The position numbers were made by a program, and so were the translations under genes. The notes below the pieces were generated by a model. The model saw only the letters and a list, made by a program, of their open reading frames with translations, was not told the DNA's origin and ran no database searches. From Planctomycetota bacterium (GTDB taxonomy: Bacteria > Planctomycetota > Planctomycetia > Gemmatales > Gemmataceae), in NCBI GenBank assembly GCA_016191165.1, contig JACPPF010000079.1:1-48403 (forward strand): a DNA stretch of 48,403 nucleotides. The letters run 5' to 3'. Of this stretch, positions 41,177-47,956 are shown piece after piece. The first letter of the stretch is position 1. Every line of letters starts with the position of its first letter.

Positions 41177-41671
41177 ATGCCCGAAAACCATCCCAGCGGC
41201 GACAAGCGTTTCAAGCTGCTCGACGCCGCCATGAAGAAGCACCAGTTCCAGGCCGATGCCTTGCTGGAGGTTCTGCACACGGCCCAGGAGTTGTTTGGAT
41301 TCCTGAACGCGGACCTGTTGATTTATGTCGCACGCCACCTGAAGCTGCCGCCGAGCCGGGTGTATGGGGTGGCGACCTTCTATCACTTTTTTACGTTCAC
41401 GCCGAAGGGCAGGCACAGTTGCAACGTGTGCCTGGGAACGGCATGTTACGTGAAGGGCGCCGCCAGCGTGCAGACGGCGCTGGAGCGCGAGCTGGGCATC
41501 AAGGCCGGGCAGACGCGCAGCGATGGGCTGGCGTCCGTGTCCATCGCGCGCTGTCTGGGCGCGTGCGGTCTGGCGCCGGCCGTCGTGTTCGACGGGAACG
41601 TCGCGGGGAATCTCACACCGGAGGCGGCCGTGGAGCATGTGAAAGGATGGGTCCCGCATGGAGCTAACTGA
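41177..41671 (+). CDS. hoxE: Bidirectional hydrogenase diaphorase subunit HoxE
   Basis: 164 residues, start preceded by AGGA. A NuoE-like thioredoxin fold with a [2Fe-2S] cluster: the first two cysteines in [10 protein letters not shown] and the second pair in [26 protein letters not shown] is a family landmark. It carries electrons between the hydrogenase module and the flavin subunit. The hoxF start lies 14 bases inside this gene. Confidence 0.93.
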
Positions 41672-43310
41672 GCTGCACCAGATTGCCGAGCATGAACGCG
41701 CCCAGCAAAAGCCGGTGCGCATCCGCTGCTGTGCCGCGGCAGGATGTGTTTCCTCGGGAAGCCTTGCCGTGAAGCAAGCGTTCGACCGCGCGATTGCCGA
41801 GCAGGGCTTGAGCGACCGCGTGCAAGCGTGCAGCGTCGGCTGCCTGCGCCTTTGCTGTGCCGGCCCGCTTGTGCAAATGGATCCCTCCCTGGAGCTTTAC
41901 GAGGAAGTGACGCCGGAGCAAGTGCCGTCGCTCGTGGCCTCGCTCCTGCCAGCCGCGGCGCCACCCTTATCAGCCCCGGGCGCAAGCCCGGGGATTCCGT
42001 CAGCCAAACGCGGCGACCCTCAGGCGCCGTTCTTCACCCGGCAGATGCCCATCGTCCTTGAGAATTCGGGCATCATCGAACCGGAGCGAATCGAATCCTA
42101 TATCGCGGCCGGCGGCTACCGCGCACTGCACCACGCGATTCGCGAGATGTCGCCGGCCCAGGTCGTTGAGTGCATCACCCGCAGCGGTCTGCGCGGGCGC
42201 GGCGGCGGCGGCTATCCCACGGGAGTCAAGTGGAGTCTGGTCGCCAAGATGCCCGGCCAGCGCAAGTTCATCGTTTGCAACGCCGACGAAGGAGACCCCG
42301 GCGCGTTCATGGACCGCAGCGTTCTGGAAAGCGATCCCCACCGCGTGCTCGAAGGCATGGCCATCGCCGCCTGTGCCGTCGGCGCGACGCAGGGCTACAT
42401 CTACGTGCGCGGCGAATATCCGCTGGCGATTCATCGACTCGAAGTCGCGATCAAGCAGGCGAAAAAGCTCGGTCTGCTTGGCGCTGGCATCTTTGATTCG
42501 CCGCTGAATTTTCGCATCGACCTGCGCATCGGCGCCGGCGCGTTTGTCTGTGGCGAAGAGACCGCCCTCATCGAATCGATCGAGGGTCGACGCGGCATGC
42601 CCCAGGTTCGACCTCCCTATCCCGCGGAGAAGGGGTTGTGGGATTGCCCGACGCTCATCAACAACGTGGAGACGTTTGCCAATATCGCGCCGATCATCAA
42701 CAAGGGCGCGGAGTGGTTCGCCGGCATTGGCACGGCGAAAAGCAAGGGAACGAAGGTGTTCGCCCTCGCCGGCAAGATCCGCCATACCGGCCTTGTCGAA
42801 GTACCAATGGGCATGACGCTGAACGCCATCGTCGAGGAACTTGGCGGCGGCGCTCCGAACGGCGGCACGATCAAGGCGGTGCAAACCGGCGGTCCCTCCG
42901 GCGGCTGCATCCCCGCCAGCCTCCTCGACACGCCCGTCGATTACGAATCGCTCCAGGCGCTGGGCTCCATCATGGGCTCCGGCGGCATGATCGTCATGGA
43001 TCAGACCACCAACATGGTCGAGGTCGCCAAGTTCTTCATGGAGTTCTGCATGGACGAATCGTGCGGCAAATGCATCCCGTGCCGCGCGGGGACCGTGCAG
43101 ATGTATCGCCTCTTGAGCCGAATCGTCGCCGGCGATGCCTCGCCAGCCGAGGTGAAGCAGCTCGAAATGTTGTGCGACATGGTCAAACACACGAGCCTGT
43201 GCGGCCTGGGGCAGTCGGCGCCGAACCCCGTGCTGAGCACGCTGCGCTATTTTCGGCCGGAGTATGATCGAGCGCTCAAGAATGGCCGCATTGCACTGCC
43301 GTTGCGTTAG
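41658..43310 (+). CDS. hoxF: Bidirectional hydrogenase NADH-binding subunit HoxF
   Basis: 550 residues, SD GAAAGGATGG. It has an N-terminal thioredoxin-like [2Fe-2S] domain ([17 protein letters not shown]), then the NuoF-like core: FMN loop [17 protein letters not shown] loop [19 protein letters not shown], and a C-terminal [4Fe-4S] motif [13 protein letters not shown] with a distal Cys (TSLCGLG). It oxidises or reduces NAD(H) in the cytoplasm. A short insertion near residues 104-114 ([11 protein letters not shown]), in the linker, is encoded by a palindromic repeat also seen in the DUF1553 gene. Confidence 0.95.
41971..42000. repeat. Palindromic repeat inside hoxF
   Basis: CAGCCCCGGGC-GCAA-GCCCGGGGATTCC holds a perfect 8-base stem. 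It matches the coding-strand sequence of the DUF1553 insertion at 27 of 30 bases, with one compensated stem pair (A-T versus G-C). The two genes read it in different frames. Confidence 0.78.
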
Positions 43311-43391: not shown

Positions 43392-44108
43392 ATGCCGGTA
43401 AAAACCCTGACCATCGACGGCCAGCTCATCACGTCGCCGCGCGACCAGACGGTGCTCGACGCCGCGCGCGGGCATGGCATCAAGATTCCCACGCTCTGCC
43501 ATCTGGACGGCGTCAGCGAGGTCGGCGCGTGCCGGCTCTGCCTCGTCGAGATCGCCGGCTCGAACAAGCTCGTACCCTCGTGCTTGACGCAGGTCGCCGA
43601 GGGGATGAACGTGACGACGAATTCGCCACGGTTGCAAGACTATCGCAAGATGATCGTCGAGTTGTTATTTGCGGAACGTAATCACGTCTGCTCGGTTTGC
43701 GTCGCCAACGGGCATTGCGAGTTGCAGGAGCTCGCGGTCGCGGTCGGCATGGACCACGTGCGCTTCGAGTATCAATTTCCCCAGCTTCCCGTGGATGTGT
43801 CGCACGATCAGTTCGGCCTCGACCACAACCGCTGCGTGATGTGCACCCGGTGCGTGCGCGTGTGCGACGAGATCGAAGGCGCCCACACCTGGGACGTGTC
43901 AGGGCGCGGACACAACGCCCGCGTCATCACCGATCTCAACCAACCCTGGGGCGATGCGGAAAGCTGCACCTCGTGCGGCAAGTGCGTCCAGGCCTGTCCA
44001 ACCGGGGCGCTATTTCGCCAGGGCGCTACCGTGGCCGAGATGCAGAAGGATAAGGAAAAACTCGGATCCCTCATGCAAGCCCGGGAGAAGAAACAATGGG
44101 TCGTCTAA
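43392..44108 (+). CDS. hoxU: Bidirectional hydrogenase diaphorase subunit HoxU
   Basis: 238 residues from the ATG at 43392, with AGAGGA upstream. It is a short NuoG-like ferredoxin subunit. A [2Fe-2S] domain ([20 protein letters not shown]) is followed by [15 protein letters not shown] and two [4Fe-4S] motifs, [11 protein letters not shown] and [12 protein letters not shown]. It links HoxF to the HoxYH hydrogenase pair. Its stop overlaps the hoxY start by 13 bases. Confidence 0.95.
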
Positions 44109-44620
44109 AGTTCGCCACCGTCTGGCTCGGCGGTTGTTCCGGCTGCCATATGTCGTTCCTCGACCTCGACGAATGGCTGATCGAACTGGCCCAACACGTG
44201 GACGTCGTGTTCAGCCCCCTCGCGGACGTCAAGGAATACCCGGACAACGTGGACCTGGTCCTCGTCGAAGGGGCGGTCGCGAACGACGAGAACCTGGACA
44301 TGATCCGCAAGGTGCGCGCCCGGACCAAGACGCTCATCGCGCTTGGCGACTGCGCGATCACCGGCAACGTGACGGCCTTGCGCAACCCGCTTGGCGTCGC
44401 GCTCGAAGTATTGCGCCCCGTCTACGGCGAGAACTATCCCAATGAACCGCGGATTGTCCCGGTGCTACTCGATCGCGTGCTGGCTGTTCATGAGGTGGTG
44501 CCGGTCGATCATTACGTGCCGGGCTGTCCGCCGCCGGCGTCGCGCATCAAGGCGGTGTTGCAAGCGCTGCTCGAAGGCAAGGCCCCGGCTCTGGAAGGGA
44601 ACGAGATTCGATTCGGTTAA
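44096..44620 (+). CDS. hoxY: Bidirectional [NiFe] hydrogenase small subunit HoxY
   Basis: 174 residues, a short cytoplasmic small subunit with no Tat signal. The proximal [4Fe-4S] ligands are in [23 protein letters not shown] and [10 protein letters not shown]. It passes electrons from the NiFe site to HoxU. SD GGGAGAAG lies within the end of hoxU. Confidence 0.95.
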
Positions 44621-44719: not shown

Positions 44720-46192
44720 ATGACAAAACGCATCATCATCGACCCGGTGTCACGCATCGAAGGGCACGCCAAGATCACGATCTACCTTGACGATCGCGAC
44801 CAGGTGACCGACGCGCGCTTTCACGTCACCGAGTTTCGTGGCTTTGAGCGGTTTTGCGAGGGCCGGCCGTTCTTCGAGATGGCGGGTCTCGCTGCGCGCA
44901 TCTGTGGCATCTGCCCGGTCAGCCACCTACTCGCCTCGGCGAAGGCGGGCGACCGCATCCTCGCCGTCGCGATTCCGCCGGCCGCGGTCAAGCTGCGCCG
45001 GCTAATGAATCTCGCCCAGTTCATCCAGTCGCATGCCCTGAGCTTCTTCCACTTGAGCGCCCCCGATCTCTTGCTCGGCTGGGAATCCGACCCCGCGAAG
45101 CGCAATGTTTTCGGCCTGATCGACTCCCACCCGGAGCTGGCCCGCGGCGGCATTCGCCTGCGCCAGCTTGGCCAGGAGATCATCGAGGCCCTGGGCGGGC
45201 GCAAGATCCATCCCGCCTGGTCGGTCCCCGGCGGCGTGCGCGAAAACCTGCCGACCGAGGTGCGCGACCGCTTCCTCGCTTGCTTGCCCCAAGCTCATGC
45301 GGTCACACGCCAGGCGCTCGATTTCTTCAAGGGCTTCCTGGATCAACACGCGGAGGAGATCCAGGTCTTCGGCAATTTCCCGAGCCTGTTCATGGGCCTG
45401 GTGACACCAGAAGGCGACTGGGAAAACTACGACGGCAGGTTGCGTTTCATGGATGGCGCAACCCCCTCACCGCCAACCCCTCTCTCGCAAGGGGCGAGGG
45501 GGGAATGCGCAGGCAACGTTCTGCACGACATCGATCCGATCGAGTACGAACAACTCCTGGGCGAAAGAGTAGAGAAAGATTCGTTCCTGAAATCACCCTA
45601 CTACAAGCCGCTGGGCTATCCCGACGGCGTCTATCGCGTGGGCCCGCTCGCGCGCGTCAATATTTGCCGGCGCATGGGAGTGCCGCGGGCGGATGGTGAG
45701 CTTGTCGAGTTTCGCCAGCGGGCGGGGGGCGTCGCCAATGCGTCGTTCTTTTTCCACTACGCGCGCTTGCTTGAGATTCTGGCTTGCCTCGAATTCCTCG
45801 AACGGCTGTTGCCCGACCCCGATTTGCAATCCGACCTGGTGCGGGCCGAGGCGGGTGTCAATTGCCTCGAAGGTATCGGGGTCAGCGAGGCGCCGCGCGG
45901 CACGCTGTTCCATCACTACCACGTGGACCGAGATGGCCTTTTGACGAAAGTCAATCTCCTCATTGCCACGGGACAGAACGCCCTGGCCATGAACCGCGCC
46001 GTAACCCAGATCGCCAGGCATTACGTGAAGGGCCCAAAAATCGAGGAGCCAATCCTGAACCGCGTGGAGGCGGGCATCCGCTGCTTCGATCCGTGCCTGA
46101 GCTGCTCCACGCACGCCCTCGGCCAGATGCCCTTGCACGTGGAACTCCGCCGCAACGATGGCACGCTGCTTCAGGAACTGCGACGCACCTGA
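44720..46192 (+). CDS. hoxH: Bidirectional [NiFe] hydrogenase large subunit HoxH
   Basis: 490 residues. The nickel-iron ligands are intact: [11 protein letters not shown] near residue 60 and DPCLSCSTH near the end. A 25-residue C-terminal peptide ([15 protein letters not shown] and onward) follows the last His, as in the unprocessed precursor that HoxW must cut. It belongs to group 3d. An in-frame palindromic insertion at about residues 248-264 ([17 protein letters not shown]) separates LRFMDG from [14 protein letters not shown], where relatives continue directly. Confidence 0.94.
45461..45511. repeat. Palindromic repeat inside hoxH
   Basis: A C-rich arm (CCAACCCCTCTCTCGC) and a G-rich arm (AAGGGGCGAGGGGGGAA) form a hairpin. 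Removing 51 bases would join LRFMDGA to GNVLHDID, which fits the usual HoxH sequence. Elements of the CCCCTCTC/GAGGGG type are common between genes in many planctomycetes. Confidence 0.68.
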
Positions 46193-46231
46193 AAGAAAAC
46201 AATCACGCGCTTCGTTGTTGGGATCCGCACC

Positions 46232-46346
46232 AATGTAGTCATCACGCTCCGCGTGATGACCTCGCAGGAAGCACTCGAGAGTTTGGATTTCCGCGAAAAT
46301 CTCCAGGCTTCTCCGATGTCATCACGCGGAGCGTGATGACTACATT
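46232..46346. mobile_element. 115-base element with perfect 29-base terminal inverted repeats, inserted in hoxW
   Basis: Left end 46232-46260 and right end 46318-46346 are exact reverse complements (29 of 29). Each end is itself a hairpin (GTCATCACGC-TCC-GCGTGATGAC). The centre is 57 bases and has no coding potential. The layout is that of a REPIN or small MITE. No clear target duplication is seen. It separates codons for RFVVGIRT (46208-46231) from NGLGPAAADIV (46348 on), which belong to one protein family. Confidence 0.85.
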
Positions 46347-46737
46347 AAATGGTCTTGGCCCCGCGGCCGCGGACATCGTGAAATCCTGGCAACTCCCTGG
46401 CGTCAAGGTGAACGTCGTCCACCAGCTTGTGCCGGAGTTGATCGCGCCGATGGGAAACGTTCGACGAGTCCTTTTCATCGATGCCGCCATCGATTTGAAC
46501 GGCGGTCCTTTCGCTCATCACGTCCTGGAGCCGAAGAAATCAGGCCGCGCCTTCGGGCATCACGAAACCCCGGCGAATCTCCTGGCCAGGTTGCTCGAGC
46601 TGGAAGGGCAAGCGCCGAACGCATGGCTCCTGTCGATCGCCGCATTTTCTTTCGGTCACGGCGATGCGATATCGGACGTCGCCCGCAGTCATCTGAAAGC
46701 GGCACTGGTCTGGCTTCGCGCCTTCCTGACGGAATGA
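46336..46737 (+). CDS. hoxW: Hydrogenase maturation protease (HoxW-like), 5' end disrupted
   Basis: 133 residues if read from the ATG at 46336, which lies inside the repeat arm, with GGAG just before. GLGPAAADIVKSW, VHQLVPELI, VLFIDAAIDLN (metal Asp region) and GHHETPANLLARLLEL (metal His region) match HoxW/HybD peptidases that trim HoxH. The family's first strand and the G-N-x-L-x-x-D-D/E-G loop with the first nickel ligand are missing. A matching start, TRFVVGIRT, lies upstream in another frame, lacks an ATG, and runs into a stop. So the gene is likely interrupted and may be a pseudogene. It converges on the BBP7 gene with 19 bases between. Confidence 0.72.
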   Translation: MTTLNGLGPAAADIVKSWQLPGVKVNVVHQLVPELIAPMGNVRRVLFIDAAIDLNGGPFAHHVLEPKKSGRAFGHHETPANLLARLLELEGQAPNAWLLSIAAFSFGHGDAISDVARSHLKAALVWLRAFLTE

Positions 46738-46756: not shown

Positions 46757-47956
46757 TCAATAAGTGAACTCAAGGCCCAGGTTGATGCTTTGAATCCACA
46801 GCGAGGTGCGGTGCATGGAGAACGCGGGTTGATTGGGACTGGCGCCGGGAACGGCGGGCGGGAACAGGTTGGGGTTGATCAACGGTTCGATCTGATCGGG
46901 CGCGCGGACGATGTTGTCCAGCAGCAGGAACGTATAACCCAGACGCACGTTCAAGTTGGCCAGGACGCGCCAGCTCAGGGTGGCGGTAATCTCGGGCATC
47001 GTCTTCCAGTCGCTGCGCGTGAACAGGCCGCTGTTGGAGCTGAGCGCGTAGACCCCGCCAACCTGCGACACCGGGGCGGCGCCGGGGACGGCGACGATCT
47101 GGCTGCCGTCAATCTGGACCTCGCGATAGATTTTGCCAACCGCGATGCGGGTGAGCACGTCCAGGGTCAGACTGTCCCAGACGAACTGCGAGCGCACGCC
47201 AATGTCGCAGCCGTGGAAGTCGTTGCGTGTGGCAAAGATGTCCCTGGTGGTGAGGGTGGTGCCCGCGATGAAGTTCGGGTCGGTGGGCGTGACGACCTGC
47301 CCGATGCGCAGGCTTTCGTCATAGCGGTAGTAGCGATAGCCGATCTGCGCGTTCAGGCGAAACCAGCCTTCGTCGATCGCCTTTTCCGTGAACACGGCAT
47401 GCCCCGTGTAGAAGTTGGCGGTCTGGGCGCGGATGTCGATGGACCCGCTGGTGGCGCCCGGGAAGGCGACCAGGACGGCCTCCTGGGTTCCATCCAGCGC
47501 GCTGGTGTAGGGCCGAGCGAGAATCGGCGATCCATCAGAACTGCCGGAAAAAATCGCCGATTGGCTTTCGAGGACCAGAAAGCCAATATCGACGCCGAAG
47601 TTGCGATCGCCTTCAAACCACCAGCCAGCGCCGAGGCGAACGCCGGAGCGCAGCTCGTCGTTGGCCCAGCCGCCGAAGAGCGTGGTGGTGGTCGGCACGC
47701 CGAGAATTCCGGCGGCAGGCCGGGGGGTTCCGGGAACGCTCGTTGTCACCAACGAAGGAAGATGGCTGGCCCGATTGACGGCAAACAGGTAATCCACGGT
47801 GGTCCAGAAACTGCGCGCGCTGGCCGGGGGCGCGTTCACCTCGGACGTCAACAGCGAAGGCGCCGGGCTTTCCACCGGCTGCGCCAGCGGCTGGGCGAAC
47901 GCGGAAACCGCTGCCAGCAACATCGCAGCCAGTGCGGCGAGGATCCGTTTCGTCAT
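46757..47956 (-). CDS. BBP7-type outer-membrane beta-barrel protein
   Basis: 399 residues. A signal peptide (MTKRILAALAAMLLAAVSAFA) is followed by repeated amphipathic beta strands typical of an outer-membrane barrel: VRLGAGWWFEGDRNFGVDIGF, RLNAQIGYRYYRYDE, IGVRSQFVWDSLTLDVLTRI, LNVRLGYTFLLLDNIVRAPDQI. The final strand INLGLEFTY ends in an aromatic residue, as barrel proteins do. The BBP7 family is largely restricted to Planctomycetota. SD GGAG is ten bases before the ATG. It probably acts as a pore or surface protein; the substrate is unknown. Confidence 0.85.
   Translation of the reverse strand: MTKRILAALAAMLLAAVSAFAQPLAQPVESPAPSLLTSEVNAPPASARSFWTTVDYLFAVNRASHLPSLVTTSVPGTPRPAAGILGVPTTTTLFGGWANDELRSGVRLGAGWWFEGDRNFGVDIGFLVLESQSAIFSGSSDGSPILARPYTSALDGTQEAVLVAFPGATSGSIDIRAQTANFYTGHAVFTEKAIDEGWFRLNAQIGYRYYRYDESLRIGQVVTPTDPNFIAGTTLTTRDIFATRNDFHGCDIGVRSQFVWDSLTLDVLTRIAVGKIYREVQIDGSQIVAVPGAAPVSQVGGVYALSSNSGLFTRSDWKTMPEITATLSWRVLANLNVRLGYTFLLLDNIVRAPDQIEPLINPNLFPPAVPGASPNQPAFSMHRTSLWIQSINLGLEFTY

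Follow-up and report, generated by a model that had tools for sequence, protein, structure and literature searches.

Introduction

Bacterial MITEs are non-autonomous derivatives of insertion sequences (ISs) and measure 70–300 bp. GTAG-tagged REP repeats, another kind of short repeat, have been reported from Planctomycetes (PMC3733652). In the hydrogenase maturation protease HybD, the likely metal ligands are Glu16, Asp62, and His93 (PMC2670836), and the same source describes each such protease as specific to a single type of hydrogenase. These systems meet at the locus presented here, which lies in a window of 48,403 nucleotides (the whole stretch of DNA analysed, contig JACPPF010000079.1 of a Planctomycetota bacterium). 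A 5′-truncated hoxW gene stands beside a truncated MITE; HoxW activity has most likely been lost, which would leave HoxH unprocessed.

The element resembles bacterial MITEs in its length of 200 bp, its lack of a transposase gene, its 28-bp terminal inverted repeats (TIRs), its 8-bp target duplications, and its four near-identical copies. It is unlike them in that its core holds two GTAG-tagged REP palindromes. Its genome also contains a shorter relative of 122 bp, as well as an IS whose TIR resembles its own without being identical. With the REP palindromes of the earlier report (PMC3733652) that core shares the GTAG tag, a 9-bp stem, a 3-base loop, the head-to-head dimer with conserved spacer, and dispersal of the palindrome in the genus, but the dimer here sits within a TIR-bounded element. 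Compared with the HoxW/HybD/HycI proteases, the hoxW remnant fits the family profile and retains the HQL motif of 3d-type HoxW, but it lacks the N-terminal strand, the GxGN loop, and the first metal ligand.

Results

A truncated MITE behind hoxH

A preliminary description of this DNA reported a 115-base block at 46232–46346 with exact inverted ends of 29 bases each, and the sequence bears this out. Three more copies of the block, 99% identical, were recovered by a search of its own genome at unrelated loci (contigs C135, C120, and C92). Because four near-identical copies occupy unrelated loci, a chance origin of the element is ruled out. The limits first given for it were those of the core. 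The full unit around that core is 200 bp with 28-bp TIRs, so that the element in the window actually runs from 46200 to 46351 and is missing its right-hand 48 bp. Left of the core, CAATCACCCGCTTCGTTGTTGGGATCCGCACC is found in all four copies with small differences; right of it, 53 bases are common to the C135, C120, and C92 copies and end in the matching inverted repeat. The TIRs of the full copies pair at 23–24 of 28 bases, and the window copy has the left TIR alone. Target duplications are 8 bp and exact for the C135 and C120 copies (AAAAAAAA and AAAAAAAG) and match at seven of eight positions for C92. The genome has four copies, each no longer than 200 bp and none holding a transposase gene, and the element is classed from its anatomy as a MITE (Table 1).

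The core of this element consists of two GTAG-TCATCACGC-TCC-GCGTGATGA units in inverted order with their tags pointing outward, which in the terminology of PMC3733652 is a head-to-head dimer; GTAG-tagged REP palindromes form a class of repeats that is already known. Searches of congeners place the palindrome across the genus, whereas the full MITE was found in its own genome alone. The literature was also searched for comparable protease truncations or MITE-adjoining deletions, and nothing relevant was found beyond PMC3733652.

Other mobile elements are present in the same genome. A second MITE of 122 bp with CAATCACCCGCTTTATTGATGGGGT ends occurs as three identical copies (C13:3745–3866, C21:90785–90906, and C70:128–249). 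Its TIRs are almost perfect, its 8-bp duplications read AATTTTTT, AAAAAAAT, and TTCTTTAA, and the C21 copy adjoins a putative tRNA gene. The ends of an IS with TIR CAACCACCCGCTTTATTGATGGGRT lie at 13 contig ends (C1, C33, C35, C37, C56, C78, C102, C111, C119, C126, C139, C156, and C182; loci L096–L114), the contigs breaking some 130–140 bases inside the IS. A reading frame at one end starts MARRSPQEAGVARTV, and the opposite end has one that finishes LLRKLEKRYAASPHQ. The TIR of this IS and that of the 200-bp MITE are similar but non-identical, and the IS family is the likely mobilising family of the MITE. The 41-residue C-terminal end of the IS protein gave no useful match in plasmid tblastn, NCBIfam, or Pfam searches for its family, and a scan of viral contigs for CAACCACCCGCTTTATTGATGGGRT returned no match. 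Two loci with single TIR-like matches (L101 and L089) were considered as insertion sequences and set aside, as the surrounding reading frames do not look like those of such elements.

Table 1 Features of the hox operon and of the MITE–hoxW junction in the window
Feature	Position	Strand	Remarks
hoxE	41177..41671	+	Intact; NCBIfam NF005747 HoxE, above cut-off
hoxF	41658..43310	+	Intact; Complex1_51K, NADH_4Fe-4S; named from context
hoxU	43392..44108	+	Intact; NCBIfam NF005745 HoxU, above cut-off
hoxY	44096..44620	+	Intact; PF01058; named from context
hoxH	44720..46192	+	490 aa, 25-residue C-terminal tail after DPCLSCSTH; PF00374; 86% identity to G004 HoxH
Left 8-bp target site copy, AAAGAAAA	46192..46199	+	A-rich; overlaps last base of hoxH stop; right copy lost; placed by position relative to TIR and by duplications of full copies
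Truncated 200-bp MITE	46200..46351	+	152 of 200 bp kept, last 48 bp gone; matches C135, C120, C92; 97% in search with C135 copy
Left 28-bp TIR of MITE	46200..46227	+	Source of most of TRFVVGIRT
Left 29-bp arm	46232..46260	+	GTAG-tagged REP unit, GTAG TCATCACGC TCC GCGTGATGA
Right 29-bp arm	46318..46346	-	Second GTAG-tagged REP unit, inverted orientation
Possible ribosome site and starts	46328..46338	+	GGAG (46328–46331); GTG 46333 or ATG 46336; inside right hairpin arm
hoxW remnant, 5′-truncated	46351..46737	+	128 codons plus stop (46735–46737), uninterrupted; profile match E 4e-49 (alignment A1); TIGR00072 E 8e-10, below cut-off

What is left of hoxW

To the right of the element, in-frame HoxW sequence runs from GLGPAAADIV to 46737, as had been proposed, with its first codon (46351) that of the first Gly of this motif. 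The remnant covers positions 14–145 of the 146 in a family profile built from 12 relatives (A1), and the same profile retrieves HybD and HycI from the PDB. Against the NCBIfam model TIGR00072 it scores 38.9 bits (cut-off 47.45), and the intact hoxW of a congener (G004) scores 80.3. About 19 codons are lost, and with them the start, the GxGN loop, the N-terminal beta strand, and the acidic pair with the first metal ligand. In the A1 profile this pair aligns with HybD Asp15–Glu16, and the region of the N-terminal GN loop and acidic pair is present in all 11 other aligned relatives, G004 included. The preliminary description had already noted that the first-ligand region was gone and that Asn precedes GLG; both are seen in the alignment, where the position of the first ligand (Glu16 in HybD, Asp in HoxW) is Asn in the window. 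The second and third ligands (equivalents of Asp62 and His93) are kept in FIDAA and GHH motifs, and both columns are invariant in A1.

It had also been proposed that the palindromic element splits hoxW, with TRFVVGIRT (46203–46229) as the first strand of the protease. A mobile palindromic element does lie at the hoxW start, but hoxW codons do not flank it on both sides: hoxW is not split, because the bases read as TRFVVGIRT belong to the left TIR of the MITE and the next few positions in all four copies, and so recur at unrelated loci.

Six congeners were compared, and hox genes are carried by G004 only. There, hoxW is uninterrupted and starts 10 bases after the hoxH stop, reading MPEHPTIVIACGNRLRGDDGLGPAAAEIV; the comparison gives the uninterrupted hoxH–hoxW order but, at 86% HoxH identity in this single relative, no precise empty site. 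The short protein is absent from all aligned relatives, and a start at the corresponding position is not seen in any of them. A contig scan with the hoxW remnant returned one distant partial match only. In a small test of decay, the remnant retains 23 of 27 conserved columns and the G004 protein 24, with five inferred changes in each. As judged from these sequences, equal decay is compatible both with a recent event and with continued use, and does not tell the two apart.

The hoxW frame is also open upstream, across the MITE and all of the 3′ part of hoxH, giving a 317-codon open reading frame (45784–46737). This chance overlap could mislead gene callers.

The only candidate for a new start lies in the right hairpin arm, where the GGAG (46328) and ATG (46336) pointed out previously are indeed present. 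Translation from this ATG would give 133 residues (MTTLNGLGP...). In folding of the isolated RNA, which ignores ribosomes and co-transcriptional folding, GGAG and ATG 46336 are paired with a probability of >0.999.

The rest of the hydrogenase system

HoxH retains the 25-residue C-terminal peptide first described for it, and no other large subunit of a NiFe hydrogenase was found in the genome. Full-length frames in the order hypF-C-D-E-A-B make up a hyp operon on contig C141, of which HypD was confirmed by family search and the remaining genes were named by length, order, and sequence start. No protease gene is seen within this operon. A profile search of the genome for a second HoxW/HybD-type protease, taken to E values of up to 10, retrieves the remnant alone; the assembly comprises 183 contigs and is 95% complete, and a second protease could lie in the missing part. 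PF01750 gave no match in the genome, a result of little weight since Pfam misses the intact G004 protein too.

Within hoxH, 17 extra in-frame residues relative to G004 (45455–45515) derive from a palindromic, C/G-rich repeat that has 38 further matches in the genome and is the second palindromic repeat inside the hox operon. The gene on the other side of hoxW (46757–47956) encodes a BBP7 porin, a family typical of planctomycetes.

Discussion

The junction between element and gene is directly seen; the order and extent of the events behind it are drawn from the full MITE copies and from the congener. In the simplest history, a non-autonomous 200-bp MITE would have inserted into the A-rich AAAGAAAA at the hoxH stop, to judge from how TIRs and target sites are arranged in the other copies. 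A deletion would then have joined base 152 of the element to a hoxW Gly codon, taking 48 bp of the MITE and about 19 hoxW codons. Up to three shared bases (ATG) are possible at this junction, and insertion and deletion could also have been a single event. What remains of HoxW has neither the first beta strand nor the GxGN loop, nor the residue that aligns with HybD Glu16, and its only plausible new start is buried in the hairpin. From established hydrogenase maturation biology, HoxH would then be expected to keep its C-terminal tail and stay inactive. The best reading of the sequences is that hoxW function was lost recently.

Three outcomes had been put forward for this locus, a dying hydrogenase, replacement of HoxW by another protease, and a working trimmed protein, and a dying maturation step fits best. 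It is unlikely that a shortened HoxW is made from ATG 46336 and either works or binds HoxH in the manner of a chaperone that does not cleave it. The spacing of GGAG and ATG is good, the remnant has no interruption and evolves no faster than the congener gene, and it retains the residues aligned with Asp62 and His93 as well as the HQL ‘HOXBOX’ motif; yet its start lies deep within a very stable hairpin, and the N-terminal region that it lacks, with the GxGN loop, the first metal ligand, and the first beta strand, is present in every aligned relative. Less probable still is a state in which the 5′-truncated protein, with its start inside the element, matures HoxH without the first ligand or the GxGN strand, or in which HoxH works with its tail attached. 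Were either true, the accepted model of NiFe hydrogenase maturation would change.

Processing of HoxH by another protease would sit well with the full-length HoxEFUYH and hypFCDEAB frames and with a genome that is 95% complete. We nonetheless regard it as very improbable: a profile able to find HybD and HycI in the PDB retrieves no further protein from this genome at E values of up to 10, the hyp operon has no visible protease gene, and maturation proteases are described as acting on a single type of hydrogenase (PMC2670836). An assembly artefact, in which hoxW would be intact in the real population and the repeated MITE would have given rise to a chimeric junction, seems equally improbable. 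The MITE does occur in several copies, and some contig breaks in this assembly fall at a related IS, but this contig runs on at both sides. A repeat-driven misjoin moreover fails to explain the hoxW junction, because the junction is internal to the element rather than at its end and the overlap is at most about three bases. We return to a 5′-truncated, most likely inactive HoxW. It is the one visibly broken step in the hydrogenase system, because hoxEFUYH and hypFCDEAB are full length and no second protease was found, and so unprocessed, inactive HoxH would be expected.

Insertion of a MITE, together with a neighbouring deletion that took away the hoxW start, is a further case of a known type of event. 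The locus carries two warnings: a translated terminal repeat can pass for the motif of a protein family, and where annotation shows hoxEFUYH as intact, an active enzyme may nevertheless be absent. It offers a natural test of HoxH maturation without a complete HoxW. More broadly, a small mobile repeat can disable a multi-subunit hydrogenase through one maturation gene, with the structural and hyp genes all open.
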